DNA from: Chryseobacterium gleum
Lineage (GTDB): Bacteria > Bacteroidota > Bacteroidia > Flavobacteriales_D > Sanyastnellaceae
NCBI GenBank assembly: GCA_945874695.1
Contig: CAMCHP010000019.1
Coordinates: forward strand, 1-44,610
Length of the DNA stretch: 44,610 nucleotides
Direction of reading: 5' to 3'
Made by a program: the position numbers and the translations under genes. The notes below the pieces were generated by a model. The model did not search any database. It was not told the origin of the DNA and saw only the letters and a list, made by a program, of their open reading frames with translations. Position 1 is the first letter of the stretch; the number at the start of each line of letters is the position of its first letter. Shown here piece after piece: positions 4,601 through 41,673 of the stretch.

Positions 4601-7600
4601 GTATACGGGCCTGTTCCTGTGAAATCTATTACGAGGTCTAAGGTTTCACCTTCGCAAAGTGATCCGCCACCTGAAATGCTAGCCGTTGGTGATTCAATTA
4701 CTGTAAAAGGCATGCCTTGCGACACATTCACAATTCCTGAGTTCAGATCGGCCAAGCCAGTGCCGTCATTGTCTGCAGCAACAGCGGAGAGGTAGTAAGT
4801 GGTTCCAAAAGTCAGTACGCCAGGAAAATCGAGGTCATTGGCAATGTCCCATTGTGGAACGTTGCTGATGTAATACACTGTACCGAGCTGCGTACCTGAA
4901 CCCGAGTGTATCACAAAAGAGAGCACATCGTCTGAATCGAGGTTCTCATCACCGTTTGCCGTAGTCGATAAAATGCCTTCGTTGCAGTACGATTGCGGGG
5001 TAACATCAACCGTTCCGGCGAAGGTTATGCTCGGACATGTAAACGGATCAATGGTAATCACTGCAGACCCGCAACCGAAGGCATCCGTAGCGGTGAAGGT
5101 GGTTGCAACCGAAGGATCAAGCGGATTCGAAAGGAAAACTTGATCTGGTCCACCATTGAACGGGGTCAAACCTCCTGCGACATCAACAGCATAAGATGCG
5201 GGCGATCCGCCTGAAACAACAAAAGAAAGTTGATACGACAGCGCATTCGGCGCACACAAGGTATCAACCTCTGAAATGGCCAAAGGAAAACCGACATCAA
5301 CTGTAACCGATGCGTTGGGTGCTGTGGCGCACTGTGCAGGCGTATTGGGGTCGCTGACCGATACAACGGCATACACCGTATTTTCAACAGGTGATACACT
5401 GAACAGGTCACCGAGGTTCACTCCGTTCACCGTCGTTTGTGTTGCCGGGTTCGTCCCAGCAGTAACCTCAATTACCACATCGAGTGGATTGGCGGTGTTG
5501 GTGTTAAACACTAAATCAACACTTTCACCGTTGCAAATGCTTGCACCACCAGTAAATTCAACGTCTGGCAAAGCATAGATGTTTACGTCGACTGAGGCAT
5601 TGCCGATGGCCACACATGCATTTCCATCATCGCTGTATGCGCTTACCGTGTAGGTCGTATTCGCGAGTGGACAAACATTGTACGTAAATACCCCGTTGAT
5701 CAAGTCAACCGCAGGGTCAACACCTGTGAAGGGGGAACCATCGATGGTGAAATTTAATGGGCCAACCGCATCGGTAAAAACAAGCTCCAAATCGGTGCAC
5801 TCTCCTGCACAAAGGTCTGCCGCTCCACTCAAACTCACGGTTGAGATGCTGGTCACACTGATGTTCACTACCGTCGCCGACGCGAGGGTAGCTGTGCAGT
5901 TGTCGCCCTGGTCAACGGCACCTACCAATTCTATCGTTACCGCTTCGGTCGGACAAACGGTATATGTTTCTCCGGAATTGAGAATAACCACATCGGTTGC
6001 AGTGCCATTGCCATCGGTGAGTTCCAAAGTGAGCTCCCACGGACCACTGCCATTGGTGAAATCAAACGCCAAGTCAAGGCAATCGCCGAGGCACACAGCC
6101 CCGTCGGTCGACGAAAACGCGACCGTTGATTCAGGAAGCACATCTACTGTTACGCAGTTTCCTGGTGCAGTGGTACAGCTATTATCATCTGTAACACTTT
6201 CGATGCAGTAGTTTGTCGTTGCCAAGGGAGAAACCGCCAAGCTGTGCTGGTCATTGATACCTAACAACGAAAGGTCTGGGCCACCTGCGTTGTAAAGCAC
6301 ATCAAACGGACCATCACCCATTAATTCAAACAGCAAGTTTCCTGACCCGCCAAAACAGAGGGTTTGGTTGCCGAGCAAATTCACCACCGGCGCTGGGTTC
6401 GAGGTTATAGCTATGACCTCATTAATGTTGGAGCTGCAGTTTGTGCCTAGATCAAGCACGTTGGTGAGCGTGATCACTTGATCAAGCGGCAAGAGGTTTG
6501 TGAAATTCCATGTGTACGGACTTGCAGCGATGAGCAATGGCGATGCTTCTCCAGCAAAATCATGGGTCACTTCCCAGGGCCCTGTTCCTGTGAGCATAAT
6601 CTCCAATGCCAGCAATTCATTGCTGCAAACCTCAACATCATCGTCAGCGGTCGCTGTTGGGAGGTTATTGACAACGAGGTTCACTGCAGGTAAAACCGTA
6701 CCCGGACAAAACGGCGCGGTTGTGTACTGCACTGAAGTCACATTGTAGTTCCCTGCGGCCGCAGCGGCGAATGTAATCGCAGTCCCATCTGCAGCAGCCA
6801 AGGGAGAAGCCGGTACGCCGCCCAATGGAGCGTAGGTCAAATCAAAGATTCCCGGTTGATCAATATTGAGAACGAGCACTGCAGCATCGCCCGCGCAAAT
6901 TGTGGTTGGCGCATCGAAGCCCGCTGTAACTTCAGGGCGGACGGTAATGGTAACCGTGCTTTCGATCGCATACGTGCACGCCGGATTGTTTGCATCGGTG
7001 ACCGATTCAAGTGTATAAGTTGTGGTGGTCGGCGGACAAACCTGAAACGTATTTCCGTTTTGCACCGCAGGAACAGCCTCGAGCAATCCCGTGGTTTCAT
7101 TCCGCAGGTTTACTGTAAATGGCCCCGTTCCGCTCAGGGCGAACGTGATCAACGTGCAGTCTCCCTCACACAGGGTCGCATTGCCGCTTATGCTGCCTGA
7201 TGGCGGCGGCGTGGTTGTTAAAGACAAAAGTGTGTCGCGGGTGCATCCGGCCGTTAGGCCGAGATCGCTTACCGTAACCAAATAATCGCCGCCAGCGAGG
7301 TTGGTTGGGTTGGCCCCATTGAAAGGAATACCCGGCCAATTGTAATCGTAATTTCCGCTACCGCCAAGCGCTCCGATGGTAATTGCACCGTCGTTTAGTG
7401 CGCACGATTCATTGGTTAGTTGAACCTGAAAATCGCTCAAGGCAACAGCAATGAGCACCGTATCGGCTGCCGGACAAGCCGGAACGCCGTTTAAGGCAAT
7501 AACCTGAATCTCCGTGTCAATGTTCGGCGTAATCGTTTGCGTGCTGCCTGAACCCGAAAGACCGGGGTTTGGGTCACCTGACAGCACGTTCCAGGTGAAT

Positions 7601-9081: not shown

Positions 9082-9103
9082 TTTTCTGCCTGACGGCAGG
9101 ATG
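9082..9103 (+). repeat. Dispersed palindrome, stem CTGCC/GGCAG
   Basis: TTTTCTGCCTGACGGCAGG then ATG: hairpin CTGCC-TGAC-GGCAG with the family's 5' T-run and 3' GGATG. Intergenic, 5 bp beyond the stop of the nuclease gene. On the transcribed strand the hairpin is followed by A residues, so it is not a terminator. Confidence 0.8.
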
Positions 9104-14197: not shown

Positions 14198-15538
14198 ATG
14201 ACTCGTATCTATTCTTTACTCATCTGCGCAATTCTAAGCACCATGCTCAGCACGGTTGCCACCGCGCAAATTTTCGAATCTGACTTTAGCACTTGGGGCA
14301 ATGGGGTTCCTACCGGTTGGAACGGATCACGCACCAATATCGGCGGAGAAAACATCATCCAAATCGACAACGACATCGCGGTTGGCGATTACGGCGTGCG
14401 CTTGGTCAATACAGAAACAGACCACAAACGCTTCACCACACAACCACTTTCTGTGAACGCTGGAGAAGCTTACGAAGTAACCATGTATGTGCGTGGTACT
14501 GGGCAAATTCGGACGGGATTGTTCGACAACCGCCCTGATGCTTTTGGTTTCGTTTACCAAAGCTGGATCACCGTCAACTCAACTGACTGGACCACTTATT
14601 CACAAACCATCACAGCTGCTGAGACAACCGACATCGCTGAATTTATTCTTTCAATCAGCAACTCTTCAGCTGACGCTCACGTTGAAGTTGACTACGTTGT
14701 AATCAATCCGAGCGTCCTCGAAGTCGTAAGCATTTATGACATTCAGTACAGCGAAGCTGCTGATGGATCTTCGCCTTTGGCCGATCAAAACGTGACTACC
14801 GGCGGCATCGTGAGTGCTGTTGGTGCTGGCGGTTTCTTTGTGCAAGACGGCGTGGGCCCATGGCGAGGGGTGTTCGTGTTCACCAACCAATCTGTAAGCC
14901 GTGGCGATAGCGTTATCTTCTCTGGAGGTGTTGTAGAATACTTCAACAGCACACAAATTTCAGGTGTTGCAGGCTTAACCATTGTATCGTCAAACAACAC
15001 CCTTCACGCACCTGTGGTTATTCCAACTGCAGATGTGAACACCGAACAGTACGAAGGTGTACTGGTTACGGTTCAAAATGCAACCTGCACGGATGCAAAC
15101 TCGGGCTTCGGTCAGTGGATCGTTAACGATGGAAGTGGCTCTTGCCTCATCAACTCAACCATTTACACAGCGACACGCAGCCAAGGGTTAATGTACAATG
15201 TTACGGGCCCTGTTTTTTACTCGTTCGACGAGTTTAAAATTATGCCGCGTGATGCCGCAGACGTTGATGGTGACACCCATGTTAACGAATTCAGCGCAGT
15301 TGCGCCGCTCACCGTATTCCCGAATCCAACCGCTGAAACCCTTCAATGGAACGCGAATGGAAACACCTTGAACGGTTGGGTAAACATCACCGACATGACA
15401 GGCCGCACAGTGCTTCAAACGCAAGTGGGTAGCATCAATCCTGTTTTGTATGTTGGCGGCCTAACGGCCGGATGGTACAACCTCGTGTTGACCACCCCAA
15501 ACGGAACTGTTCACCACGCTCGTTTCCTCCGCCAATAA
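14198..15538 (+). CDS. Secreted YhcR-type OB-fold protein with T9SS type A sorting domain
   Basis: A 446-residue exported protein starting 2 bp after the DUF5689 gene. Signal peptide 1-23 (STVATA). Residues about 25-170 resemble a carbohydrate-binding-like jelly roll (FESDFSTWGNGVPTGW, VEVDYVVI). Residues about 177-350 have the pattern seen in OB-fold segments attached to extracellular nucleases such as YhcR: SIYDIQY, SPLADQNVTTGGIVSAV, GGFFVQD, GDSVIFSGGVVEYFNSTQIS. A type A sorting domain (about 370-446; VFPNPTAETLQW, GWYNLVL) ends the protein. There is no nuclease catalytic domain, so it may bind nucleic acid for the EEP enzyme encoded nearby (inference). A dispersed palindrome at 15457-15475 encodes GLTAGW in the sorting domain. 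Confidence 0.82.
   Translation: MTRIYSLLICAILSTMLSTVATAQIFESDFSTWGNGVPTGWNGSRTNIGGENIIQIDNDIAVGDYGVRLVNTETDHKRFTTQPLSVNAGEAYEVTMYVRGTGQIRTGLFDNRPDAFGFVYQSWITVNSTDWTTYSQTITAAETTDIAEFILSISNSSADAHVEVDYVVINPSVLEVVSIYDIQYSEAADGSSPLADQNVTTGGIVSAVGAGGFFVQDGVGPWRGVFVFTNQSVSRGDSVIFSGGVVEYFNSTQISGVAGLTIVSSNNTLHAPVVIPTADVNTEQYEGVLVTVQNATCTDANSGFGQWIVNDGSGSCLINSTIYTATRSQGLMYNVTGPVFYSFDEFKIMPRDAADVDGDTHVNEFSAVAPLTVFPNPTAETLQWNANGNTLNGWVNITDMTGRTVLQTQVGSINPVLYVGGLTAGWYNLVLTTPNGTVHHARFLRQ
15457..15475 (+). repeat. Dispersed palindrome, stem CGGCC/GGCCG (in CDS)
   Basis: CGGCCTAACGGCCGGATGG: 5-bp stem, TAAC loop, 3' GGATGG. In frame inside the T9SS sorting domain of the OB-fold protein, read as GLTAGW. Confidence 0.75.
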
Positions 15539-15672: not shown

Positions 15673-16140
15673 ATGAATTCCATGATCGTACGTTCTTTCA
15701 CCCTGCTTGCTGCTGTTTTCTTGATTTCTTGTGGCACGGCAACCGACCATCCGGCCGTTCAGGCCGAAAACCAAAACACCGACTCTGCGCAAACGCAACA
15801 AGATGTTCAAACCATCGCTACCATTCCGGCGAATGAATTTGACGCATTGCTTAAATCGACCGCCAATGCGCGTTTGATCGACGTGCGCACCCCCGAAGAA
15901 GTGGCAGGCGGCGTAATCAACTGTGCCGACAATTATGATTTTTACGATGCCGACTTCAGCCAACGCATTGCTGAACTCGATCGCAACCAACCCGTTTTCG
16001 TGTATTGTGCTGTGGGCGGGCGCAGCGGACAGGCAACCAAGGTGTTCAAAGATGCCGGCTTTAAGACCGTGTACAACCTCGATGGCGGTATTCGCGGATG
16101 GGCAGGCAGCGGCTTACCCGTTGCACCTTGTACCAAATAA
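15673..16140 (+). CDS. Rhodanese-like domain lipoprotein
   Basis: A 155-residue lipoprotein: MNSMIVRSFT leads into a hydrophobic stretch and lipobox LISC (Cys20). The ATG at 15673 was chosen; 15682 is also possible. A rhodanese domain covers about residues 50-150, with LIDVRTPEEVAGG and the active-site loop YCAVGGRSGQA (Cys112), then VYNLDGGIRGWAGSGLP. The family transfers sulfane sulfur (thiosulfate or persulfide), and this copy keeps the catalytic Cys, so it is probably active in the cell envelope. It is followed after 8 bp by a small membrane protein. A dispersed palindrome at 15747-15772 encodes the HPAVQAEN linker just after the lipobox, on the strand opposite to the element's orientation. 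Confidence 0.9.
   Translation: MNSMIVRSFTLLAAVFLISCGTATDHPAVQAENQNTDSAQTQQDVQTIATIPANEFDALLKSTANARLIDVRTPEEVAGGVINCADNYDFYDADFSQRIAELDRNQPVFVYCAVGGRSGQATKVFKDAGFKTVYNLDGGIRGWAGSGLPVAPCTK
15747..15772 (-). repeat. Dispersed palindrome, stem CGGCC/GGCCG (in CDS, antisense)
   Basis: Minus strand TTTTCGGCC-TGAAC-GGCCG followed by GATGG. It lies in the post-lipobox linker of the rhodanese gene, opposite to the direction of translation. Confidence 0.77.
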
Positions 16141-20429: not shown

Positions 20430-21280
20430 TATCCCAACTGTACAAGCCCGCGATTCCCTTGCAAACCTCCGGTGTGAATCGCACGCACGCGCTCCCCCGT
20501 TTTGATTTCGCCTTTCGAATGCAAGTCGTATAAACCCATCATCATCTTCGCCGTGTACACGCGATCAAGCGGCAAGTTATGATGGAGCTGCTGATCGTGA
20601 ATAAACGCACGAAGCGCGTCGTTCATCTTCGCAAAGCCACCACATGTGTAAGCATACTTCCACTCTACGCGGGCCGCAAGCTCCGCTGCCAACTCTTCGT
20701 CGAGGGTCGTCCAATACAACGCTTCTTGCAAGCGCTCTGGTAAACTAAAATCATTGAGCGCCGGAAAAGCTAAAATGCGCTGATTCAAACCCGCCGTGAG
20801 CAATAAACCCGCCAGTGTAGTTCCCGTGCCAACCGGCACTGCCAGCGTGTCGCACATGCGGTCATCATCGTTTAAGATCTCCATGCAGCCGTTGATCCCG
20901 AGGTAATTGCTCCCACCCTCGGGTATGAAATAACTCATCGGGTACCGCGCGTGAATTTCCTGCTTAAAGGCTTCTGTGCTGCATTCGTCATACGCCTCAC
21001 GCTCCATAAACTCCAGATGCATGCCCATATCTAGGCAATCGCGCAAGGTTTCAGTTAAAACGGGCATTTCTTCGCCGCGCACAATACCTATGCAAGAGAT
21101 TTCTGCCTGTCGGCAGGATGCGGCTGTAGCATGCAAGTGGTTGCTGAAGGCGCCGCCCACCGTAACAATGCGTTCGGCTCCTTTCTCGCGAGCTTTAAGG
21201 ATGTTGTATTTCAACTTGAAATACTTGTTGCCTGGTGCCTCGGGGTGCAGTAAATCAAGTCGCTTAACCGTGAGTTGCAT
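20429..21280 (-). CDS. 1-aminocyclopropane-1-carboxylate deaminase/D-cysteine desulfhydrase family protein
   Basis: A 283-residue PLP enzyme of the tryptophan-synthase-beta fold. LHPEAPGNKYFKLKYN carries the PLP lysine (about Lys19); GGAFSNHLHATAA is the cofactor/substrate Ser-Asn-His loop; IPEGGSNYLG and PVGTGTTLAGLL form the phosphate-binding region; HTGGLQGNRGL ends the protein. Relatives deaminate ACC or desulfhydrate D-cysteine; the residues needed to tell these apart cannot be judged by eye, so the substrate is left open. ATG at 21280 chosen, 8 bp after the purF stop; the longer open frame lies inside purF. At the place where relatives have a variable helix, a dispersed palindrome (21100-21120) encodes SCRQAEI without changing the length. 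Confidence 0.86.
   Translation of the reverse strand: MQLTVKRLDLLHPEAPGNKYFKLKYNILKAREKGAERIVTVGGAFSNHLHATAASCRQAEISCIGIVRGEEMPVLTETLRDCLDMGMHLEFMEREAYDECSTEAFKQEIHARYPMSYFIPEGGSNYLGINGCMEILNDDDRMCDTLAVPVGTGTTLAGLLLTAGLNQRILAFPALNDFSLPERLQEALYWTTLDEELAAELAARVEWKYAYTCGGFAKMNDALRAFIHDQQLHHNLPLDRVYTAKMMMGLYDLHSKGEIKTGERVRAIHTGGLQGNRGLVQLG
21100..21120 (+). repeat. Dispersed palindrome, stem CTGCC/GGCAG (in CDS, antisense)
   Basis: TTTCTGCC-TGTC-GGCAGGATG in the deaminase-like gene, opposite to translation, read as SCRQAEI. Confidence 0.78.
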
Positions 21281-23396: not shown

Positions 23397-24989
23397 TTAG
23401 AAACGAAGTCTTCCAATTCGGTACAATTTTCTTGACTGCCCGTACAAAAATAAGGTCCTCGTATCGGGTGAAAAATGAACTTTCGGGCGTAAAATGACGT
23501 CGAAATCACGCATTGAAAAGAGGGCCTCGCGCACTTGATTGCCCGCACGATCGAGGGTAACCAAGGTGGCAATGGCCTTGCGCATGCCGTACAATTGACG
23601 CGGATCAGCTTGCGGATTCGCTTTGAGCAATTCAATATTCTCCGGATTGTCGTTGAAAACAATGTACACGTGCGCCTCATCGGCTGCGAGAGCATACGAG
23701 CTATACTGCCCGCTGTCATTCACACTCATTTGCTCTTTGGGTACGCGAACTGTCCACTGCACTTCGCCCTCCCGATTCACATCAACAACCAACAAGTCGT
23801 TATAATAGTAATAATAAAGCATCTCTTGCCTTCCCGTGGCAATGTCGGTTCGAAAGGATTGCTGCACAAAATATTGCTCGGCCACAAAGGTCGCACCGCC
23901 ATCGGCATGCGTGATGAAGTAGTCAAAGTAGAAGTCGCTCAACTCTCTTCCGCGTTCGACTTGTTTCGGTCGCAAAAAAAGTCGCTTCACGTCGTCATTA
24001 AAAGGCATCATGCCAGTCGCTTCAATTTCTTTCGTGCTGCTGTTGATGCGGAAATAAAACGCTCCCCCAATGCTGAACTGGCGCTCATTGCTATAAAATC
24101 CGCCTACCGTTATATCGTCATTTAACGACACGTCAAAGGCTGTGGCCGATACCCATTTGCCATCAACAGCTACCTCATATTCCTTGATTTTATTCAGCTC
24201 TGGGTCATAACTGATGAGCGTATAGCCCTGCTCGGCCGCTCCCCGCTCGCTGCCACGCAAGGTTTTGTCGCGGTTTCCACCGCCTGTGAGCAGGTACAAA
24301 TGTCCGCGTGAATCTATGCGGTATTGATTGATTTCTGTCACCGCTTCGTGGTCAGGAAAAGTCAAGTCTTTCTCCCACAGGGTTTCGAGGTTTTGGTCGA
24401 TGACTTTGAATGCAAGCCGGTCAGCGATGCGTCGTTCGCTCAATACTTCGGGATAGATCAACAAGAGCTTCTGATCGCGCGAAGGCTGAACGGCAAATCC
24501 ACCAGTTTTGCGCCGCGCCGCATACTCTGCCAACACCACCGCATCGCCGGTGAGAAGCCCTGTTTGATCGAGCCATTGGCCGTAAAGCCGCACATAACCG
24601 GCAACCGTATCCCACACATGAAAGAGCACCACCAAGCGGTTGTTGAGCATCATCACATCAACAACCTCGACAAATTGCCGATCAAAGGGTGCGAATTGAA
24701 TGGGCGTGGAAGCGATAAAATCCAGCGATGTGACATCGTAAATATCGAGTTGCAAGTTGGGTTCGCGGTCATCCCATGCGCCGCCGCCTATCGCTCCGCG
24801 CAAAACATAGAGTTGCAGGCTATCGGCTGCGACCATCTCAACCGCACCCATTCTGCGCTTCAACTTGGATGGCGGTGACCATTTGACTTCAGGGGGCTGC
24901 GCCCATCCGCCCGTTAGGGCGAAACCCAAATCAAGGATTAGGACTGCTAACCATGACCTATATGTCGCTGCTTTTAGCAACTTGGTCAT
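23397..24989 (-). CDS. Secreted protein, probable beta-propeller, function unknown
   Basis: A 530-residue exported protein. ATG at 24989 (MTKLLKAATYR) chosen; a GTG four codons upstream is possible. The signal peptide ends near FALTGGWAQ, a segment encoded by a dispersed palindrome (24901-24926). The mature part is all-beta in character, with recurring strand patterns such as LQLYVLRGA, NRLVVLFHVWD, GHLYLLTGGG, ITVGGFYSN, GATFVAEQYFV, AHVYIVFNDN and RTLFLYGQ, as in propeller or WD-like proteins. There is no sorting domain and no catalytic motif I can name. Its stop lies close to the tRNA-Leu promoter. It follows the YadA-head-repeat gene with 12 bp between them (overlapping if the GTG start is used), so both are likely co-transcribed. 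Confidence 0.7.
   Translation of the reverse strand: MTKLLKAATYRSWLAVLILDLGFALTGGWAQPPEVKWSPPSKLKRRMGAVEMVAADSLQLYVLRGAIGGGAWDDREPNLQLDIYDVTSLDFIASTPIQFAPFDRQFVEVVDVMMLNNRLVVLFHVWDTVAGYVRLYGQWLDQTGLLTGDAVVLAEYAARRKTGGFAVQPSRDQKLLLIYPEVLSERRIADRLAFKVIDQNLETLWEKDLTFPDHEAVTEINQYRIDSRGHLYLLTGGGNRDKTLRGSERGAAEQGYTLISYDPELNKIKEYEVAVDGKWVSATAFDVSLNDDITVGGFYSNERQFSIGGAFYFRINSSTKEIEATGMMPFNDDVKRLFLRPKQVERGRELSDFYFDYFITHADGGATFVAEQYFVQQSFRTDIATGRQEMLYYYYYNDLLVVDVNREGEVQWTVRVPKEQMSVNDSGQYSSYALAADEAHVYIVFNDNPENIELLKANPQADPRQLYGMRKAIATLVTLDRAGNQVREALFSMRDFDVILRPKVHFSPDTRTLFLYGQSRKLYRIGRLRF
24901..24926 (-). repeat. Dispersed palindrome, stem CGCCC/GGGCG (in CDS)
   Basis: Minus strand TTTCGCCC-TAAC-GGGCG followed by GATGGGC, in frame at the end of a signal peptide, read as FALTGGWA. 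Confidence 0.77.
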
Positions 24990-25001: not shown

Positions 25002-26129
25002 TTATTGACCAATCTGATCGACCTGCTCTTGCAAAGCATTTACTTGTTGCTGCAATAATGCGTTGGCAGTTTGCAATTCCTGAATAATGAGTAACAAATC
25101 GTTGCCATTGACAATGATGTTGCCGTTAACACTCATGTCTCCAGCAACCATTGCATTACCGCTAGCCGTGACTTTGAACGCATCACTTCTTGCATCATTC
25201 GTTGTTCCGTTGCCCACTACGAAAAGCACATCAGCTTGATCAGCTAAGTTAAAACGCCCAAGCGCTGTTTGATCATTCTGATCTGCGATGGTACCATTGC
25301 CTCCTGAATGACTTCTTTGTCCAGAAGCAATGGTATTCAGGCCTGCCGCATGCGAATTTTGACCTGATGCAGCATTGCCTCGGTTCTGAGCATGCGCATA
25401 CAAACCAGTTGTTACCGATTGATATCCCTCGGCGTGCGAGGCGAAAGCAAGCGCTTCGGTTTGGTACCCTTCACTGTGTGCAGCATCCGCTAAGGCCTCT
25501 GTACCTTCTCCCTCTGCATGTGCACAGGTTCCATCTGCAATGGTATTTCGATTCGCCGCATGAGAATATAGGCCCAAGGCTTGCGTCTGATAACCCTCTG
25601 CATGCGCTGCTGTAGCTGTCGCGGTTGTTTGAAAGCCCTCTGCGTGAGAGGCTGTGCCTGAAGAAGTCGTACCTTCTCCTTCGGCGTGTGCACAGGTTCC
25701 GGATGCTGTTGTGAATCGATTCTGGCTATGGCTAAAGTTGCCCGTTGCTTCGGTATCATAACCCTCAGCGTGTGCGTAGCTTCCAGAAGCTACGGTTTGG
25801 TAACCCTCAATAATGCTATTTGTAACCCGTAAGCGACCGTTCACCCAACCTATTGGTTGTATGCTCATACCTATTGTGATAACACTGTCTTTGAACATGG
25901 CCAACCCTAGAGAATCTCGCGCTGCTTCTGCACTTGCAGCCCCTGTACCACCATTTATAACGGGCACAACACCTTCTGCTTGGAACTCTTGCCCAAAGAA
26001 GCTTAATATCCCAAGCACGTCCGGAATACCAATAATCTCATCGCCATTTTCATCTGGATTATAAGGAAGTTGAGCATTCATCGTTAACGCGAAGAAAGCA
26101 ACAATAACAGTTAAGGATAAAGAGCGCAT
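25002..26129 (-). CDS. Secreted protein with YadA-head-like repeats and C-terminal coiled coil
   Basis: A 375-residue exported protein. Signal peptide 1-19 (FFALTMNAQ). Residues about 22-48 (YNPDENGDEIIGIPDVLGILSFFG) resemble a short Ca-binding, dockerin-like motif frequent at the N-terminus of Bacteroidota secreted proteins. The segment GGTGAASAEAARDSLG is typical of phage-fibre-like and cell-surface trimers. About 110-290 is a run of ~14-residue units of the form SHAEGYQTxAxGxYAHAxN, the YadA/Hia head left-handed beta-roll. A neck (FKVTASGNAMVAGDMSVNGN) and a heptad coiled coil ending in LLQQQVNALQEQVDQ follow. This predicts a trimeric fibre. There is no membrane anchor or T9SS signal, so how it reaches or stays on the surface is unclear. 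Confidence 0.8.
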   Translation of the reverse strand: MRSLSLTVIVAFFALTMNAQLPYNPDENGDEIIGIPDVLGILSFFGQEFQAEGVVPVINGGTGAASAEAARDSLGLAMFKDSVITIGMSIQPIGWVNGRLRVTNSIIEGYQTVASGSYAHAEGYDTEATGNFSHSQNRFTTASGTCAHAEGEGTTSSGTASHAEGFQTTATATAAHAEGYQTQALGLYSHAANRNTIADGTCAHAEGEGTEALADAAHSEGYQTEALAFASHAEGYQSVTTGLYAHAQNRGNAASGQNSHAAGLNTIASGQRSHSGGNGTIADQNDQTALGRFNLADQADVLFVVGNGTTNDARSDAFKVTASGNAMVAGDMSVNGNIIVNGNDLLLIIQELQTANALLQQQVNALQEQVDQIGQ

Positions 26130-27952: not shown

Positions 27953-28363
27953 TTAATCGACACCCGGAAAATGATCAACGACTTTAACTTTAAGGTCGGG
28001 AAAATGATCAACCACCTTGATTTTTATATCGGGAAATTGATCGACAACCTGCCACAAGCCGCAGCGATCGGGGAAATGTTCGACGTATTTGACCTTGATG
28101 TCTGGAAAATGGTCGACAAACTGAATTTTGATATCCGGAAAATGGTCAACAAACTGCACTTTGCCCCACAAGTTAATTCCTTCAAATGTGCAGTCGCCCT
28201 TAGAAAAGGCTTCAATCAGGGCGGCGCGCTGAGTTTCGCTCAGGGGTGCGGCCTCGCTCGCACTGCTACACACAAGAGGTTGCGTAGGCAACATCTCTTG
28301 AGCGGAGAGGCCCATCCACCCCAAAAACAAACCGAAAACGAAAACGTGTGCGCGAATGTGCAT
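27953..28363 (-). CDS. Small secreted protein with VDHFPD repeats, probable 7(1) septoil-knot domain
   Basis: A 136-residue exported protein with signal peptide 1-22 (GLSAQ). After a short helical segment (LSETQRAALIEAFSKGDC) come six copies of a ~10-residue unit: FVDHFPDIKI, QFVDHFPDIKV, KYVEHFPD, VVDQFPDIKI, KVVDHFPDLKV, KVVDHFPG. A CGLW insertion splits the array 3+3. I recall this (V/F)(V/D)xFPD pattern as the hallmark of the family named '7(1) septoil knot domain', predicted to form one of the most complex protein knots. Function unknown. The antisense strand has a longer open frame, but this strand carries the signal peptide and family pattern. It lies 9 bp after the DUF2200 gene. Confidence 0.72.
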   Translation of the reverse strand: MHIRAHVFVFGLFLGWMGLSAQEMLPTQPLVCSSASEAAPLSETQRAALIEAFSKGDCTFEGINLWGKVQFVDHFPDIKIQFVDHFPDIKVKYVEHFPDRCGLWQVVDQFPDIKIKVVDHFPDLKVKVVDHFPGVD

Positions 28364-29227: not shown

Positions 29228-29250
29228 TTCTGCCTAACGGCAGGATGGGT
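29228..29250 (+). repeat. Dispersed palindrome, stem CTGCC/GGCAG
   Basis: TTCTGCC-TAAC-GGCAGGATGG, intergenic in the 215-bp divergent gap between the DUF1801 gene and the BNR-like T9SS gene. The rest of that gap holds only a TAACTTTC box at 29318-29325, a weak -7 candidate for the plus-strand gene. Confidence 0.8.
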
Positions 29251-32238: not shown

Positions 32239-33243
32239 TTACGCTTCGTCGAGCCATACAATGTCGACAGCCTTCATGCGACCCTCAGGCCCGTAACCAA
32301 TCAGGTACGACAACCGATCGCCCAAGCGCAAATCATTGAAATCGCAATTCGTTAAGTCGCTGTAATGAAAAAACGTGCCGTTGGGTGGCTCGCCAATGAA
32401 GCCATACCCTTCTTTCAAGACAAAAACCTCGCCTTCAATTCGCTCCGATGGATCAATCGGCGCACTCGGCTTCCGATCTTCATCGTTCGCCTGATTGCCG
32501 AACCCTTCGTTCTCGGCTTCAATCACGTCATAGCCATCTTCTTCTTCAAAGGCCACCTCACGCGCTACAAAATCGCGCTCTCGACTGAATACAAACAAGC
32601 GATCAATCACTGGATTATTAGCATTGGCCGGATCATTGATCAACTCATGCATCGCAATCGGATAGGTGACCTCCTCAAGCAATTCATGCGATGTGCGCGT
32701 TGAAAACTGCTTGCCAAAATCATTCACGGTCTCAAAATCCCAGCCCAAAACCATCACCCGTGTGCCCAAAGTGTTCAACTTGCGAATCAAAGGCACATAA
32801 TCGCCGTCGCCCGCAATCAACACTACCACATTGAAACGCTTGTAAAAGGCCAACTCATAGGCCTCCAAAGCCAACCATACATCAATGCCCTTTTCTTGGT
32901 ACTTGCCACCGTATGACTTCAACGGCGAGTAGTGCGTGGTCACACCTGACGATACCAAAATGTCGTCAAACACACGCTCATGATAAATCAGCTTCTCACG
33001 CGAACTCGCCTCTGCCGCTGACAAGCGTCCGCGAAAATAATGCGCATCAACAATTTGACACAGCTTAATGTCTTGCTGAAACGCCCCTGCAACTTGATGC
33101 CGAATAAAACGATGCAAACCATCAATGCTGATGCGCGCGCGACGTTCGTGGGCATAGCTGTAATAATTGCTAACGTGATAAAAGAAATTGCCATCGTAAA
33201 AAACACCGATGCGCACTAAATTACTGCGAGTTTCTGAATTCAT
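32239..33243 (-). CDS. NYN-domain ribonuclease-like protein with C-terminal cold-shock domain
   Basis: A 334-residue cytoplasmic protein. Residues about 10-190 form a NYN (PIN-like) nuclease domain with the acidic residues in place: GVFYDGNFFYH, EKGIDVWLALEAYELAF, VLIAGDGDYVPLIRKL, GTRVMVLGWDFE. An acidic linker (about 225-262) leads to a cold-shock/OB domain: EGEVFVLKEGYGFIGEP, GTFFHYSDLTNCDFNDLRLGDRLSYLIGYGPEGRMKAVDI. Metal-dependent RNase activity guided by the RNA-binding CSD is a reasonable inference; the target is unknown. A TACCTTTG box at 33262-33269 lies 19 nt upstream and is a plausible -7 element. Confidence 0.87.
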   Translation of the reverse strand: MNSETRSNLVRIGVFYDGNFFYHVSNYYSYAHERRARISIDGLHRFIRHQVAGAFQQDIKLCQIVDAHYFRGRLSAAEASSREKLIYHERVFDDILVSSGVTTHYSPLKSYGGKYQEKGIDVWLALEAYELAFYKRFNVVVLIAGDGDYVPLIRKLNTLGTRVMVLGWDFETVNDFGKQFSTRTSHELLEEVTYPIAMHELINDPANANNPVIDRLFVFSRERDFVAREVAFEEEDGYDVIEAENEGFGNQANDEDRKPSAPIDPSERIEGEVFVLKEGYGFIGEPPNGTFFHYSDLTNCDFNDLRLGDRLSYLIGYGPEGRMKAVDIVWLDEA

Positions 33244-33269: not shown

Positions 33270-33337
33270 CACTTTTGTGGTGCTGCCACTCTGCATGCAT
33301 ACCATCCTTTCAACCCCTTGGCTCAATTTTTGTTTAA

Positions 33338-33398
33338 AGGTTTTGGCCTAACGGCCAGATGGGTGAGCGCGCCCATCCGCCCGACAGGGCGAAAACCC
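33338..33398. repeat. REPIN-like inverted pair of dispersed palindromes
   Basis: Two copies face each other in the 240-bp gap upstream of the lipoprotein gene. Copy 1 (33340-33362, plus): TTTTGGCC-TAAC-GGCCAGATGGG. Copy 2 (33371-33397, minus): TTTTCGCCC-TGTC-GGGCG then GATGGG. They are separated by 8 bp, so outer AGGTTTT/AAAACCCT and inner GATGGG/CCCATC arms pair and the whole ~61 bp can fold as one long imperfect hairpin. This is the layout of REPIN/BIME elements. I saw no other signal in this gap. Confidence 0.8.
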
Positions 33399-33483
33399 TA
33401 ATCACGCCCTTTTCATCGGTCAAATTAAACCTTTCACCCGCCGCATAGTCTTAATGCATGTAACTCATTAACAATGTGAAACC

Positions 33484-34293
33484 ATGAAAAAAACACTCCT
33501 CCTGATGACTGCTGCCGCACTCATCTTTACCGCTTGCCGAAAAGATGAAGAAGAGCCGGCACTCGATACCGACCTCGCAGCAAACGAACAAGCACTGGCC
33601 GCAAGTGAACGATCCTATTCGAGTGAAGTTGATGCCTATGTTTTCCCACTGAGCCTCAATTCATCGCTTTGTTTCCCCGGAAATGGCAACGGCACCGTTG
33701 ATTGCGTAACCGTTACCGATTCGGGTGCTGACGTGTACCCGCGCACCATCACCCTCGACTACGGTGATGCCTGCGAAGGCATTGGAGGCAACATTCGCAG
33801 CGGGGTGATCACCATTACGTGGTCGGCCGCGCCCGATGAAATCAACGCGCAACGCACGGTGACTTTCGTTGATTTCGCCTTCAACAACCGCGCAATTACC
33901 GGTACGCGCACCGTAACATACACGGGCTTGAACGCTGATGAAAATCCGACATATACCCTCGTGGTCGATACCGACATTGAAACCGCCAACGGAACCCTCG
34001 GCCACAATGCTACCCAAAGCATTGTGTGGTTGAGCGGACATGAAACCGCAGCGTGTTTCGACAATATTTTCGAGATCTCTGGTGTATCTACCGTGGTTCG
34101 TCCGAACGGCTTGCCCGTTACCCGCACCATCACCACGCCGCTCATTGTTGATCGGGTGTGTGGTTATACCATCGCTGGAGTGATACAAGTAACGGGGGTT
34201 CTAAATCCGCGCAGCCTCAATTACGGCGATGGCACATGCGACAACATCGCAGTGCTTACGATGAACGGCAACACATACGAGATTACACTTTAA
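33484..34293 (+). CDS. Lipoprotein of unknown function with paired cysteines
   Basis: A 269-residue lipoprotein: MKKTLLLMTAAALIFTAC with lipobox FTAC (Cys18), then an acidic, likely flexible linker (KDEEEPALDTDLAANEQ). The mature domain is beta-rich with five or six further cysteines (SLCFPGNG, VDCVTV, DYGDACEGIGG, AACFDNIF, RVCGYTI, GTCDNIAV), an even spread that suggests disulfides. The TITLDYGDAC...RSGVITITW pattern recurs in Bacteroidota lipoproteins without a known function. Monocistronic: a REPIN-like element upstream and a strong terminator downstream. Confidence 0.8.
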   Translation: MKKTLLLMTAAALIFTACRKDEEEPALDTDLAANEQALAASERSYSSEVDAYVFPLSLNSSLCFPGNGNGTVDCVTVTDSGADVYPRTITLDYGDACEGIGGNIRSGVITITWSAAPDEINAQRTVTFVDFAFNNRAITGTRTVTYTGLNADENPTYTLVVDTDIETANGTLGHNATQSIVWLSGHETAACFDNIFEISGVSTVVRPNGLPVTRTITTPLIVDRVCGYTIAGVIQVTGVLNPRSLNYGDGTCDNIAVLTMNGNTYEITL

Positions 34294-34907: not shown

Positions 34908-36107
34908 TTATCGCGTGCGCACAGCTTGTTCAAAGGTGCCCGTCAAAACTTGGCTGTACCACAAGATATTATCGGCCAAATTGCGGCTCATCCCGTACGC
35001 CTGCGTAGGGGTGATGAGGGTGATCATTTCGGCTGCAGCAATGGCTTCGATCACCGAGCCGGCCAGCACTTGCGAATACCACGCCCCATTTAACGCGCTG
35101 TTTCGGCTGAAGCCGTAGGCCATTTGATCGGTGTACACAACGACTTTATCTTTTGATGCAATGGTGCCCAACAAAACGCCTGATGTTGATGTGCTGTACC
35201 ACGTGCCGTTGCCTGAACTGTTGCGGCGAAATCCATAAGCCATGCCATTGGTCACGAGCACAATGCCTTCTTCGCTCGCCTCGGTTGCAATAACAGGCGA
35301 GTCTAAAACCTGTTCGGTAAAAGCGGCATTGTCGGCTTGGTTGCGCGCAAACCCGTAAGCGGTTTGATCGGTATACACGACAATGTAGTCGCCCACACTC
35401 AAGGTGGTGCAACTGCCATCGCCGGGCTGCCCTGCGATGCCTTGCGCACCTTGCGGACCGGGCAAGCCGATGGGGCCTTGTGCACCCGTTTCACCCGCCG
35501 GCCCAACGGGGCCCGCGACACCTGCAACACCCGCAACGCCTTGCTGACCTTGCGGTCCAACGGGGCCTATTGCTCCGGCTGGGCCGGGAACGCCTTGCAT
35601 GCCTTGCACTCCGGGAACGCCCTGCGCGCCCTGTGCACCCGTTGCTCCGGGTGGGCCTTGTAAACCCGGTTCGCCCTGAGGTCCGGGCTCGCCCTGAACA
35701 CCGCCATTTGCAGCATACAAGGCGTATGGCACGCTCAACAATTGGCTGGCACCCGTTATGGAGAAGTCATTGCCACCATTCGGATCAGTGGCTGAAACGA
35801 GGTAGTAAGGACCATTGGCCCAGTTAATGGAAGCGATGCTGCCCAATTCAGCGGCTCCATCGCCAGCGACCAGGCTGATGAGCCCGTTTGGGTTGGTTTG
35901 TGCCGTATGCACCTCGGCAAAAACTTCGATGCCATTTTCACTTCCTTGCACAATGGCGATGCGCGTGCTCACTGTCGCATTCACAAGCAACTGACTTTCA
36001 GCGTTGCGCAGAACGGCCTGGTACGACATCAATTGGGGTGCTTGCGCACGCACGCTTTCAGCAAAGAGTAGCACCGCAAGTAAGAGCAGGTAATTTATTC
36101 GACGCAT
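34908..36107 (-). CDS. Secreted collagen-like (Gly-X-Y) protein
   Basis: A 399-residue exported protein. Signal peptide 1-21 (AESVRAQ). The N-terminal domain (about 22-132) is the Bacteroidota module APQLMSYQAVLRNAESQLLV ... NPNGLISLVAGDG ... WANGPYYLVSATDPNGG ... QLLSVPYALYA. About 135-232 is an uninterrupted run of about 32 Gly-X-Y triplets (GEPGPQGEPGLQGPPG and on), a collagen-like triple helix predicted to trimerise. The C-terminal ~165 residues hold four ~42-residue repeats with YTDQ(T/M)AYGF(A/S)RN...WYSQVL. There is no sorting domain. The gene lies 2 bp after a small T9SS protein gene in one operon; an exported trimeric fibre is the best inference. Confidence 0.85.
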   Translation of the reverse strand: MRRINYLLLLAVLLFAESVRAQAPQLMSYQAVLRNAESQLLVNATVSTRIAIVQGSENGIEVFAEVHTAQTNPNGLISLVAGDGAAELGSIASINWANGPYYLVSATDPNGGNDFSITGASQLLSVPYALYAANGGVQGEPGPQGEPGLQGPPGATGAQGAQGVPGVQGMQGVPGPAGAIGPVGPQGQQGVAGVAGVAGPVGPAGETGAQGPIGLPGPQGAQGIAGQPGDGSCTTLSVGDYIVVYTDQTAYGFARNQADNAAFTEQVLDSPVIATEASEEGIVLVTNGMAYGFRRNSSGNGTWYSTSTSGVLLGTIASKDKVVVYTDQMAYGFSRNSALNGAWYSQVLAGSVIEAIAAAEMITLITPTQAYGMSRNLADNILWYSQVLTGTFEQAVRTR

Positions 36108-36592: not shown

Positions 36593-37869
36593 TCGATTAC
36601 CGTGGGTTGATTGGCGTGTGGTTCAGTGCGAATAACCTGCTTTAAGCGTTCACTGAGCAGCAAGCCCGCCAAGGCATAAGCCGTAAACATATAAAAACCC
36701 AAACGCAAGGTCGATTGGTTGGTGGTAAACACCTCTAAGGTAGCAGAACCGCGCTCAATTTGGGTGAGTTGGTTGTTGATGATGCCGCTGAAGCCAATAA
36801 ACGCCATGAACAAAGCCACTACAAGCACATCGGCCATTGACCATTTGGCCGAGCGAAACAGCACGGCATGCAGCACACGTGATTGCGGCAAGCGGTTGCG
36901 CAAAACCGCGATCAAGGTCAGGGTGAGTTTCACGGCGGGCAGCAAAATACTGAAGCTGAACACCAAAAACGACACCACGATCAAGGGCAAGTCGCCATTG
37001 ATTAAAAGTAAGTGCACCACCTCGGCAATGCTTTTGCTTTGAAAAAAAAGCACCTGGTCGTGAAAAGCCACCGGCTCACCCATGAGTAAGAAAGAAAACT
37101 CGGCGATGGTGGCTTCAATATCGATCATGGGAAGGCTTACACCGGCAACGAGTAAAACCAAGGCTACCAGCGTCAATGCACTGTAAATAATCCGATCGCG
37201 CGTTCCCCAAAGCATCCAAGCAAGGGCTGCGATCACCAGCACGGCGAAAATATACACCGCGGTTCGGCTTTGTTGCCGCGCATCCTGCCGATAGGCAGAA
37301 ATCAACGTTAAACAACCCTCGCGATCGTCGCAGCCGTAACGAAGCAGTACGGCGTTGAGGGCGCTGTAATCCATGCTGCCTACCGTTTCATCGGCAAAGG
37401 TTTGAATGCGCTCTACAAGCCACTGTTTCAGCGCGGCTTTGGTTTCGGGGGTATCTAAACGGTCAACGATGGCTTCAGCATAAGAAGGGATGCCGGCACG
37501 AATGTCGTCGAAAGAGATTAGCAGGTCGGCAAAGAATTGTTTAAACACGCCCCCCAGACTTTTGCTGTTGCGCTCACGCATGAGCTGCTCAACCTCGTTG
37601 ATGAGTACCTCGAGAATTTCTTCGGTTTTGCGCAGCAAATCTTTTCGGTTGGCGGGCGTCACTTCAAATTCATCAACTTTCTTGGTGATCACCGTAGCGG
37701 CGATATCTTTCCAAGCATCGATGCTGAACAATCCGTAACTGATATGGCTGAGCACCACGCGGTCGGCATTGAGGTTGCGCTGCACACGCTCAAGGCGGTA
37801 CACATGCACGGTGAAAATAACCAGCACGGCCAAAAGGCTTATTGCAGCAGCTCGGGCAAGGGTTTGCAT
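36589..37869 (-). CDS. PqiA-domain membrane protein
   Basis: A 426-residue inner-membrane protein. TM1 is at about 7-23. A ~180-residue, largely helical periplasmic region follows (VDEFEVTPANRKDLLRKTEEI, QLMRERNSKSLGGVFKQFFADLL). Four further TMs carry the PqiA-type core: VLLVAGVSLPMIDIEA, LFFQSKSIAEVVHLLLINGDLPLIVVSFLVFSFSILLPAVKLTLTL, RSAKWSMADVLVVALFMAFIGF. PqiA proteins work with MCE proteins in envelope lipid transport; no MCE gene is present. A dispersed palindrome (37281-37302) encodes ISAYRQDA in the periplasmic region. Translationally coupled to the small T9SS gene. Confidence 0.8.
   Translation of the reverse strand: MQTLARAAAISLLAVLVIFTVHVYRLERVQRNLNADRVVLSHISYGLFSIDAWKDIAATVITKKVDEFEVTPANRKDLLRKTEEILEVLINEVEQLMRERNSKSLGGVFKQFFADLLISFDDIRAGIPSYAEAIVDRLDTPETKAALKQWLVERIQTFADETVGSMDYSALNAVLLRYGCDDREGCLTLISAYRQDARQQSRTAVYIFAVLVIAALAWMLWGTRDRIIYSALTLVALVLLVAGVSLPMIDIEATIAEFSFLLMGEPVAFHDQVLFFQSKSIAEVVHLLLINGDLPLIVVSFLVFSFSILLPAVKLTLTLIAVLRNRLPQSRVLHAVLFRSAKWSMADVLVVALFMAFIGFSGIINNQLTQIERGSATLEVFTTNQSTLRLGFYMFTAYALAGLLLSERLKQVIRTEPHANQPTVIE
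37281..37302 (-). repeat. Dispersed palindrome, stem CTGCC/GGCAG (in CDS)
   Basis: Minus strand ATTTCTGCC-TATC-GGCAGGATG, in frame in the PqiA-like gene, read as ISAYRQDA, a different frame from the GLTAGW copies. Confidence 0.77.
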
Positions 37870-37920
37870 GCGGCAATTTAAACAATGCCGATCAGGTAGC
37901 GTCGTGTGAATTTGTATATG

Positions 37921-37945
37921 GTTTTCGGCCTAAACGGCCGGATGG
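37921..37945 (+). repeat. Dispersed palindrome, stem CGGCC/GGCCG
   Basis: GTTTTCGGCC-TAAAC-GGCCG followed by GATGGT, intergenic, ending 2 bp before the stop codon of the XRE gene. Nearly identical to the copy at 430-454. Confidence 0.8.
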
Positions 37946-37947
37946 TC

Positions 37948-38235
37948 TCAGTCTTTTTTTCGACGAACCGGAGAATACGTTGTGGGTTGCTCTAAAAACG
38001 CGCTAAGATTTGTAATTTTGGGCAGGAGTTCAGTCAGGTTGACGTCGAGTGCGGCACTGAGGCGAACCAATGTGAGAATGTGCGGGTTTGTTTTTCCGTT
38101 TTCGATGATGCTCAAATTGGGCACATCCATGTCGATGCGATAAGCCAAATCTGCCTGCGAAAGACCCAGTTCTTTTCGCCGATCCACAATGGCCGCGCCC
38201 AGTTTTTGCAAGTATTCCCCGTCACTCATTGGCAT
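37948..38235 (-). CDS. XRE-family transcriptional regulator
   Basis: A 95-residue protein that is almost entirely one helix-turn-helix domain (about 10-66): LGAAIVDRRKELGLSQADLAYRIDMDVPNLSIIENGKTNPHILTLVRLSAALDV, the classic Cro/CI pattern with LSQ...LA turn and SxIExGK recognition helix. The tail is short and basic (PVRRKKD). Either ATG (38235 or 38229) could be used. It is divergent from an unknown gene across an 18-bp palindrome that is its likely operator, giving autoregulation plus control of the neighbour (inference). Confidence 0.9.
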   Translation of the reverse strand: MPMSDGEYLQKLGAAIVDRRKELGLSQADLAYRIDMDVPNLSIIENGKTNPHILTLVRLSAALDVNLTELLPKITNLSAFLEQPTTYSPVRRKKD

Positions 38236-39669: not shown

Positions 39670-41673
39670 ATGGCAAAACTTGATGCAAAAACCCCATCCG
39701 GCCCTTTGGCCGAAAAATGGACCCACCACAAGAACACCATTCGCTTGGTTAACCCAGCGAACAAACGTTCAATTGATGTAATCGTGGTTGGCACTGGCCT
39801 CGCCGGTGGCGCTGCTGCTGCATCGCTAGGTGAAATGGGATACAACGTGAAAGCTTTCTGCTTTCAAGACTCTCCACGTCGTGCGCACTCCATTGCGGCA
39901 CAGGGTGGAATCAACGCAGCAAAGAACTACCAAAACGACGGTGACTCAACCTATCGTTTGTTTTACGACACCATCAAAGGTGGCGATTACCGTTCGCGTG
40001 AGGCGAATGTGTACCGCCTTGCAGAGGTATCGGCCAACATCATTGACCAATGTGTTGCGCAAGGTGTACCCTTTGCACGCGATTACGGCGGCTTGCTCGA
40101 CAACCGTTCTTTTGGAGGCGTGCTCGTTTCACGAACGTTTTACGCGAAGGGACAAACCGGCCAACAACTGTTGTTGGGTGCCTACAGTGCCCTTTCACGC
40201 CAAATTTCAAAAGGCAAGGTTGAGATGCTCAACCGCCACGAAGTGCTCGATGTCGTAATCGTTGACGGCAAATGCCGCGGTGTAATCGCACGCAACTTGA
40301 TCACGGGTGCCATCGAACGCCACGGGGCGCACGCTGTGATTCTTGCAACAGGCGGATACGGCAACGTATTCTACCTCTCAACCAACGCCATGGGTTCAAA
40401 CGTAACCGCAGCGTGGAAGGCCCACATGAAAGGCGCTTTCTTCGCGAATCCGTGCTTTACCCAAATTCACCCAACTTGCATTCCGGTGTCAGGCGAGTAC
40501 CAGTCGAAGCTGACGTTGATGTCAGAGTCACTCCGCAACGATGGCCGAATTTGGGTGCCGAAGAAAAAAGAAGACGTAGCAGCCGTTCGAAACGGCAGCA
40601 AAAGTCCGGTTGATATTCCTGAAGAAGACCGCGACTACTACCTCGAGCGCCGGTACCCGTCGTTTGGAAACTTGGTGCCACGCGACGTGGCTTCACGTGC
40701 GGCCAAAGAGCGTTGCGATGAGGGCTACGGAGTAAATAAAACTGGCGAAGCGGTTTACCTCGATTTCAGTAGTGCAATTATGCGCTACGGAGCCACTGAA
40801 GCCAAAATGCGCGGCATCGAAAATCCGTCGCAAGAACAGGTGCGAAGCCTTGGAGAAGACGTCGTTCGCGCGAAGTACGGCAACCTGTTTCAGATGTACG
40901 AGAAGATCACCGATGATGATCCGTACAAAACACCGATGATGATTTACCCTGCGGTTCACTACACCATGGGCGGCTTGTGGGTTGATTACAACCTCATGAC
41001 CACCGTGCCTGGTTTATTTGCCGCCGGTGAAGCGAACTTCTCTGACCACGGGGCAAACCGCTTGGGTGCAAGTGCACTCATGCAAGGTTTGGCCGATGGC
41101 TATTTTGTGCTCCCTTACACCGTAGGCGAATACTTGGCCGATGACATCCGAACCGGAAAAATCAACACCAATTCACCCGAATTTGTGGCGGCCGAAAAAA
41201 ACGTGAGCGACCGCATCAGCAAGTTGATGAATAACAATGGCACCAAGCCGGTTGACGATTTCCATCGCCGTTTGGGCCGCATCATGTGGGACGAATGTGG
41301 CATGGCGCGCAGTGAGGCCGGCTTAAAAAAGGCCATTGCTGATATTCAAGCTTTGCGTGAAGAATTTTGGCGCGATGCGCGTGTGCCGGGCAAGGCTGAC
41401 GGCCTGAACCCTGAGCTTGAAAAGGCCGGACGTGTGGCCGACTTTATCGACCTCGGTGAGCTCATGTGCCGCGATGCACTGGAGCGTTTGGAGTCGTGCG
41501 GCGGACACTTCCGGGTCGAGTATCAAACCGAAGACGGCGAAGCTTTGCGCGACGACGATAACTTCGCATTTGTCTCGGCTTGGGAATACACCGGCAAACC
41601 TTCTGAAGCCATTCTTCATAAAGAAGACCTCGTTTACGAAAATGTTAAATTGGTCCAGCGCAGCTACAAGTAA
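39670..41673 (+). CDS. sdhA: Succinate dehydrogenase flavoprotein subunit
   Basis: A 667-residue FAD subunit oxidising succinate to fumarate. [22 protein letters not shown] is the dinucleotide fold. [20 protein letters not shown] carries the covalent-FAD His (about residue 75). [19 protein letters not shown] and [19 protein letters not shown] are active-site and FAD-contact regions. Length is normal for the type B enzyme. The N-terminal PSGPLAEKW, conserved in relatives as I recall them, happens to be written in codons that resemble the dispersed palindrome (see rejected items). Confidence 0.96.

Follow-up and report, generated by a model that had tools for sequence, protein, structure and literature searches.

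The window, by which we mean the whole stretch of DNA analysed (44,610 bp), carries at 33338–33399 an inverted pair of short hairpin units, GGTTT-TGGCC-TAAC-GGCCA-GATGGG + TGAGCGCG + CCCATC-CGCCC-GACA-GGGCG-AAAACCCT, lying in a 240-bp gap between two divergent genes. The left gene (32239–33243, minus strand) encodes a protein with an NYN domain in Pfam and a cold-shock domain match below its cut-off, and the right gene (33484–34293, plus strand) has no Pfam match at 0.001 and a 45% identical homolog in relative G012. In three loci of relatives that carry the left gene (L182–L184, 3.7–3.9 kb each), the right gene is not adjacent. The left unit (33344–33361, plus strand, with its CATC-first reading on the minus strand) has the stem TGGCC/GGCCA, the loop TAAC and the tag GATG; the right unit (33374–33391, minus strand, CATC-first reading on the plus strand) has the stem CGCCC/GGGCG, the loop TGTC and the same tag. 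The two tags face each other, and the 8-bp spacer TGAGCGCG (33364–33371) separates GATGGG from CCCATC. The first-pass annotation had described such a pair with different stems (TGGCC and CGCCC) 8 bp apart, and the sequence reads as described, with a span one base longer than the 33338–33398 first stated.

A covariance model places both units far above background (37.6 bits for the left and 42.0 bits for the right), and both are among the 44 units from which this model was built. The computed DNA fold of 33325–33410 is a three-hairpin clover closed by GGTTT/AAACC, with an energy of −19.9 kcal/mol and a z of −3.4, and none of 200 shuffles folds equally well.

Fourteen units in the window reach at least 27 bits with the covariance model, and the next match scores 16.1. 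The singlets recovered by the model together with a scanner lie at 3326–3343 (minus, tag GATA) and 7244–7261 (minus), both inside the same long ORF, and at 9086–9103 (plus), 15457–15474 (plus, close to the 3′ terminus of a gene whose product has a Por_Secre_tail domain in Pfam), 15748–15766 (minus, 5-nt loop), 21103–21120 (plus) and 29230–29247 (plus, intergenic by ORF calls). The singlet at 24904–24921 (minus) has the top model score in the window, 43.8 bits. The one at 37281–37298 (minus) lies in a PqiA-domain gene whose protein aligns to homologs with no gap at the unit, and a weak one with the loop AAAG, at 39695–39712 (minus) in a flavoprotein gene, is ungapped at the unit against an 84% identical homolog. 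A unit with a 5-nt loop at 434–452 (plus) overlies the codons for VFGLNGRMV, close to the C-terminus of an ORF that looks sorting-domain-like by its motif, and shares an identical 29-mer with the unit at 37926–37944 (plus, intergenic by ORF calls); the two copies span 428–456, on the sorting-domain-like codons, and 37920–37948, between ORFs, and a third place, 15745–15773, is 97% complementary to 37920–37948. Repeats of other kinds were also noticed in the window: repeats spaced 84 and 168 bp in a minus-strand ORF at 25488–25806 and runs of a 33-nt repeat (67–76% alike) over a small minus-strand ORF at 27959–28162, each probably belonging to a repeat protein, and a gene for a collagen-like repeat protein at 34908–36107 (Pfam Collagen, E 6e-15).

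Anatomy and census of the units

The covariance model and the scanner were built from 44 units, taken from the window and from loci that were BLAST matches to the pair, some of which fall inside the counted sample. In 844,610 bp, or 27% of the 3,086,477-bp genome, 245 units were counted, one per 3.4 kb, which would amount to about 900 genome-wide if the remainder is alike; the first 444,610 bp hold 134, and one shuffle of this part held none. The scanner is biased towards T..C loops, the tag and paired stems; the tests of tag, stem and loop were repeated without these preferences. When tetramers 3′ of perfect 5-bp hairpins were counted with no tag preset, GATG was the most enriched (253 against 29 in shuffled sequence), and in the scanner's own matches the four tag positions are 93–100% conserved.

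Read from the T-run side, a unit consists of a T/G-rich stretch, GTTTT, a 5-bp stem, a T..C loop, the other arm of the stem and GATG, often followed by GG; on the complementary strand it reads CATC, 5-bp stem, G..A loop, other arm, AAAAC. The hairpin thus has a T-run before it on one strand and an A-run behind it on the other, and no T-run follows it. Loops are of 4 nt (159 units), 5 nt (74), 3 nt (11) or 6 nt (1), and the tetraloop of the CATC strand is mostly GNYA. The letters of the stem vary (CGGCC, CGCCC, CTGCC, CGACC, CCGCC and others), yet pairing is kept: 1205 of the 1225 stem pairs are Watson-Crick, one is G-T and 19 are mismatches, with a scanner that itself favours pairing. Without stem scoring, all five pairs form in 190 sites (1.0 in shuffles) and four of five in 36 (15.3 in shuffles), and three of five show no excess, so that pairing is all-or-none in this test. 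The outermost stem pair is C-G in 229 of the 245 units, and the next pair outward is as a rule not complementary, a T standing beside G in 202 of the 245 and the flank being A-rich. Without loop scoring, the CATC strand has G..A in 123 of 135 four-base, 67 of 82 five-base, 7 of 19 three-base and 2 of 26 longer loops, and a control with ten other tags gave G..A in 11 of 105 four-base loops.

The near-absence of G-T pairs and the GNNA type of loop point to single-stranded DNA as the form in which the hairpin probably acts; GNA and GNNA loops are described as making extraordinarily stable DNA mini-hairpins (PMC4686876). Hairpins acting in transcripts, as terminators, stabilisers or translation elements, would fit the excess of genic units on the coding strand (115, against 75 on the opposite strand) and an RNA fold of the pair that beats 199 of 200 shuffles. 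We nevertheless set an RNA element aside as very improbable because a single G-T pair occurs in 1225; in addition, the hairpin lacks a following T-run, its tetraloop is not of the RNA GNRA type, and the same-strand exclusion described below has no obvious reason at the RNA level. The units very probably form a real family that is defined at the DNA level and oriented by strand.

Among the 233 units with 4- or 5-nt loops, no two are identical over the 30–31 columns compared. Pairs with at most two differences are commoner than independent columns predict (12 against 1.4 for 5-nt loops, 4 against 0.67 for 4-nt loops), which leaves room for subfamilies or some past copying; the near-identical pairs listed have little in common beyond the motif.

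The family was not seen in the relatives searched, all of which lie outside the genus. No unit occurs in 1.2 Mb of relative G012, and 28 of 29 relatives gave no match at 0.001 with at most 150 candidates scored in each, a depth at which weak members could be missed; the remaining one, G005, has four weak matches to the unit model under the same limit, the best at 28.3 bits. A further 394 genomes of the phylum gave no match at 1e-5 under stricter filters, with at most 18 candidates scored, where weak members could likewise be missed. A similar family of hairpin and tag was not clearly present in the pieces of relatives that were read (800 kb for G012). Public collections, from which the source genome and records near it may be absent, returned one and zero viral matches and two genome_contigs (GTDB) stretches with a degenerate pattern, and all three matches are taken as chance because their stems do not pair. 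The strong hairpin-and-tag signal in G005 comes from contig C3 (L156), which holds 44 hairpin-bearing repeats at a spacing of about 71 bp, probably a CRISPR array.

Position in genes, origin and transposase candidates

Mechanically called ORFs of at least 100 aa cover 92% of the sample and hold 190 of the 245 units, against 225.5 expected; the 55 intergenic units are thus over-represented 2.8 times. The origin of the genic ones was examined by comparing 359 stop-to-stop ORFs (every frame over a unit; 65 rows) with G012, keeping the best homolog per unit and dropping alignments with stops, which left 55 units, 33 of them at no less than 40% identity. A whole inserted unit would add about 8–10 aa. 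Among the 33, 25 show no indel, one an insertion of at least 4 aa and none an insertion of at least 8 aa; over all 55 the corresponding counts are 33, 3 and 1, with fractions of 0.812, 0.027 and 0.006 at control positions. For comparison, published intragenic REPs are described as inserts, more than half of which encode 20–30 or more amino acids (PMC3733652).

Small changes of length are nonetheless commoner at units than at controls (any indel in 8 of 33, or 24%, against 6%), so that pure base substitution is not the whole story, and identity drops to 39% at units from 53% in their flanks. Partial stems are almost absent, unlike what a gradual process in place would leave. The C-terminal motifs that we take to be sorting-domain-like, on the basis of a motif modelled on T9SS tails and not of a domain search, give a closer view: nine of 27 carry a unit, always with the tag in a single codon register, and the stem is CGACC in seven, CGGCC in one and CTGCC in one, the last with a shorter loop (VFSASGRMV). 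The other 18 motifs have varied codons. CGACC, the usual stem there, fits the local Asp codon.

These observations could also be explained by old mobile palindromes, that is, units that in the past inserted, or took the place of DNA of about the same length through conversion by a hairpin oligonucleotide, and that are now immobile and trimmed in frame. The lowered identity and surplus of small indels at units, the perfect stems with few intermediates and the near-identical units would all suit such a history; it is hard to square with a stem that fits the local Asp codon in the sorting-domain-like motifs and with the near-identical pairs listed, which share little besides the motif, and we consider it distinctly unlikely. 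The units were probably made mainly in place. They illustrate how genes can carry a DNA-level signal within their codons, in one register in the case of the sorting-domain-like motifs.

The first-pass annotation had read the pair as a REPIN, a replicating unit mobilised by a RAYT transposase, with the singlets either remnants of such units or independent. Its architecture is indeed REP-like, with a tag beside a hairpin and a clover fold of the pair, an identical 29-mer occurs at two places in the window, and a genome search for other inverted pairs, as it had suggested, found six in 845 kb, four of which have 10–14 bp between tags, a number above chance (6 against 1.0). Mobilisation by a RAYT, with the singlets as decayed halves, is not supported. 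Singlets dominate by about 39 to 1 (233 against 6 doublets), the stems differ in five of the six close pairs and are equal in one, the spacers are unlike, the 233 units whose loops have 4 or 5 nt include no two that agree over all 30–31 columns, 190 of the 245 units are intragenic, and none of the 33 comparisons contains an insertion of unit size. No RAYT above cut-off was found in the 97%-complete assembly. After tests of how often units form doublets, whether their arms match, where they lie, whether they look inserted and which transposases the genome encodes, a REPIN was rejected as the main reading and is very improbable; the singlets behave as independent units.

The sole Y1 transposase gene found in the genome (contig C123, L031, 1200–2291) is IS200-like, reaching 36.9 bits with the RAYT model (cut-off 80) and 68.6 with the IS200 model (cut-off 55); its motifs DHCH and YICSQPEHH resemble subclass 1.2 as described in PMC6006769. 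Within the 2.3 kb examined around this gene, the nearest unit is about 0.9 kb off. The gene is surrounded by other short palindromes, GCTCCGTAGGAGC, GACCCTACGGGTC and GACATAAATGTC; with one mismatch allowed, GCTCCGTAGGAGC and GACCCTACGGGTC occur in the sample only around it and GACATAAATGTC also in five other stretches, and they look like a repeat cluster of that gene's own. Of 29 relatives, 13 have Y1 genes and none of these 13 shows the unit family; G005, with its four weak matches, has no Y1 gene. Since the genome yielded one Y1 gene and 27% of its sequence already holds 245 units, the units are not ends of tnpA/tnpB elements of the IS200/IS605 kind, and the Y1 protein of contig C123 is a candidate factor only. 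Integron integrase models gave matches only far below cut-off, and all 14 control genomes likewise match below it.

Spacing, strand and a proposed explanation

The arrangement of the units depends on their strand. At 60–2000 bp, 18 of 94 pairs of units are on the same strand, against 41.0 (sd 4.7) under strand permutation, and none of 5000 permutations is as low; the deficit is also seen at 60–1000 bp (4 of 40 against 16.7), the count is near normal at 2–3 kb (19 of 47 against 20.6), normal at 3–6 kb (72 of 160 against 69.1) and slightly higher than expected at 6–12 kb (111 of 224 against 98.2). Against random placement, the 60–2000 bp range holds 18 same-strand pairs for 52.5 expected and 76 opposite-strand pairs for 67.7 expected. 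This exclusion rests on one sample of 844,610 bp, the halves of which agree (11 same-strand to 45 opposite-strand pairs below 2 kb in one, 7 to 37 in the other), and very likely holds genome-wide. Neighbours alternate in orientation in 148 of 204 cases (115.2 when permuted, sd 6.6), which we attribute to the same-strand depletion. At the shortest range, below 60 bp, tag-to-tag neighbours number 6 against 1.0 expected in the 844,610 bp (Poisson P 0.0006), the pair at 33338 being one of them; they hold 12 of the 245 units, and no tail-facing or same-strand pairs occur at this distance.

Three other accounts of this spacing were rejected. An attraction between inverted units beyond 60 bp is at odds with opposite-strand pairs that stand at random expectation from 60 to 2000 bp. 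Local copying between neighbours leaves no sign: of the 82 opposite-strand neighbours in the first sample, 12 have equal stems, where stem frequencies predict a share of about 0.16. Deletion by homology is not indicated either: 4 of the 18 surviving same-strand pairs at 60–2000 bp share a stem, a test of low power that gives no dependence on homology.

The rarity of close same-strand copies suggests reading of the marks on a single DNA strand by some agent. We tentatively favour, while holding it to be somewhat less than an even bet, the explanation that the facing pair is two neighbours in a genome-wide family of strand-oriented DNA hairpin sites, which arose largely in place and would be bound by a putative factor recognising single-stranded DNA hairpins. 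The hairpin would form where DNA becomes single-stranded, on the lagging strand, in incoming DNA or at resected ends, and a structure-reading factor may bind it on the CATC strand, by analogy with TnpAREP, which reads REP on one strand only. Such a putative factor might resemble HUH/Y1 enzymes, or it might serve recombination or uptake in a directional manner. Where two sites on one strand lie within a few kb of each other, they would then be harmful, if the factor acts on both and removes or joins the intervening DNA, or redundant. Most new units would be made by local changes, in many cases at places that already come close to the motif, as in the sorting-domain codons. The pair at 33338 would be tolerated because its members are on opposite strands.

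With an IS200/IS605-like factor, same-strand neighbours within its reach would be a danger and those on opposite strands would be unaffected; the responsibility of an HUH/Y1-type factor is possible and in our judgement somewhat unlikely. IS200/IS605 enzymes recognise the hairpins that terminate their elements and transfer single strands, with higher efficiency when the lagging-strand template is the source (PMC6006769, PMC5371812). Here, orientation does not correlate with the GC skew of the stretch (Spearman 0.11, P 0.51), which argues against a simple lagging-strand model. For a directional site of the Chi or uptake kind, same-strand neighbours would be redundant instead. The present data do not separate the excision-type from the redundancy-type reading.

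A directional Chi or DNA-uptake signal, kept by selection or biased uptake and acting in one direction over 1–2 kb so that a second same-strand site is redundant and lost, is also an explanation in its own right. It would agree with the lack of unit-size insertions, with many units in coding sequence and an intergenic share 2.8 times expectation, and with a same-strand exclusion of limited range and no replichore bias. Of the known uptake sequences, too, a part falls within reading frames, 65% of them in H. influenzae and 35% in N. gonorrhoeae, and about 10% form inverted repeats (PMC1939737); the same source describes them as non-palindromic and orientation-independent, with a graded series of one-mismatch forms, whereas the stems here covary and are all-or-none. 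Redundant sites should moreover leave decayed remnants, which are scarce. We regard this signal, taken alone, as rather unlikely.

Our proposal can be taken further, to a genome-wide single-stranded DNA code of hundreds of hairpin marks made in place, in which the stem is free and the tag and loop are fixed. A dedicated factor with a reach of about 2 kb would read these marks on one strand, so that selection forbids same-strand neighbours. This stronger form is speculative and, as we see it, on the unlikely side. If true, the code would correspond, in hairpin form, to Chi or uptake sequences and would be distinct from both repeat elements and RNA structures. Short hairpin repeats are generally classed as selfish REPs; in this genome the spacing itself is informative and provides a measurable footprint of a one-strand process, with same-strand neighbours avoided to about 2 kb and opposite-strand ones at the random rate. 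The same spacing test is applicable to other genomes with REPs, Chi sites or uptake sequences. Our searches of the open-access literature, which mostly targeted other questions, found nothing on same-strand exclusion of hairpins, and there is a real chance that the rule marks something new.

Comparison with known systems

Judged on the features tested, the family belongs neither to the REPINs nor to the GTAG or CGTC REPs, and it is not a terminator or, by the customary marks, an uptake sequence; no T-run follows the hairpin as in an intrinsic terminator. REPINs with RAYTs (Bertels and Rainey 2011, PMC3116915) resemble the pair in their two facing hairpins and clover fold, and differ from the units here, in which doublets are few, arms and spacers unlike and intragenic singlets dominant, with no RAYT above cut-off.

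The REPs tagged by GTAG or CGTC (Di Nocera 2013, PMC3733652) share with the units a tetranucleotide tag by a short hairpin, many copies, some of them intragenic, and the formation of heterodimers and of predominantly head-to-head dimers, taking the tagged end as head; the CGTC families include Bacteroidetes and lack a dedicated transposase. The units differ from them in the CATC tag, a 5-bp stem with C-G first and an A-rich tail, as well as in being mostly intragenic without added amino acids and in the same-strand exclusion. The enriched tag is GATG and not GTAG, CGTC or the variants TGTC and CCTC, and the units have neither the 8–9 bp stem starting with A-T pairs nor the CCA tail of the CGTC REPs. 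The strings CATC and GATG have no occurrence in PMC3733652.

The uptake sequences USS and DUS (PMC1939737 and PMC2346458) are like the units in numbering hundreds to thousands per genome, in being partly coding and evolved in place, and in forming some inverted pairs. The units are hairpins with a covarying stem and not a fixed non-palindromic core, their orientation affects spacing, and they show no graded series of mismatches, sites with five of five pairs numbering 190 and those with four of five 36 (15.3 in shuffles).

Among systems with a cognate enzyme, the group 3 REPtron of Marinomonas (PMC8266576) has a perfect 5-bp stem whose sequence is slightly important and a 4-nt loop with essential end bases, like the units; its GTAG tag stands two bases off the stem and it has a cognate TnpAREP, unlike the present family, for which no such enzyme was found. 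The same source reports that TnpAREPs bind REP and not its complement, that tag and loop bases matter to a degree that varies by system, and that exchanging the entire stem in one system had only a moderate effect. The pattern of constraint on the units is of the same kind as in TnpAREP recognition. The family looks like a strand-read REP in its anatomy and like a signal of the uptake or Chi type in its distribution.
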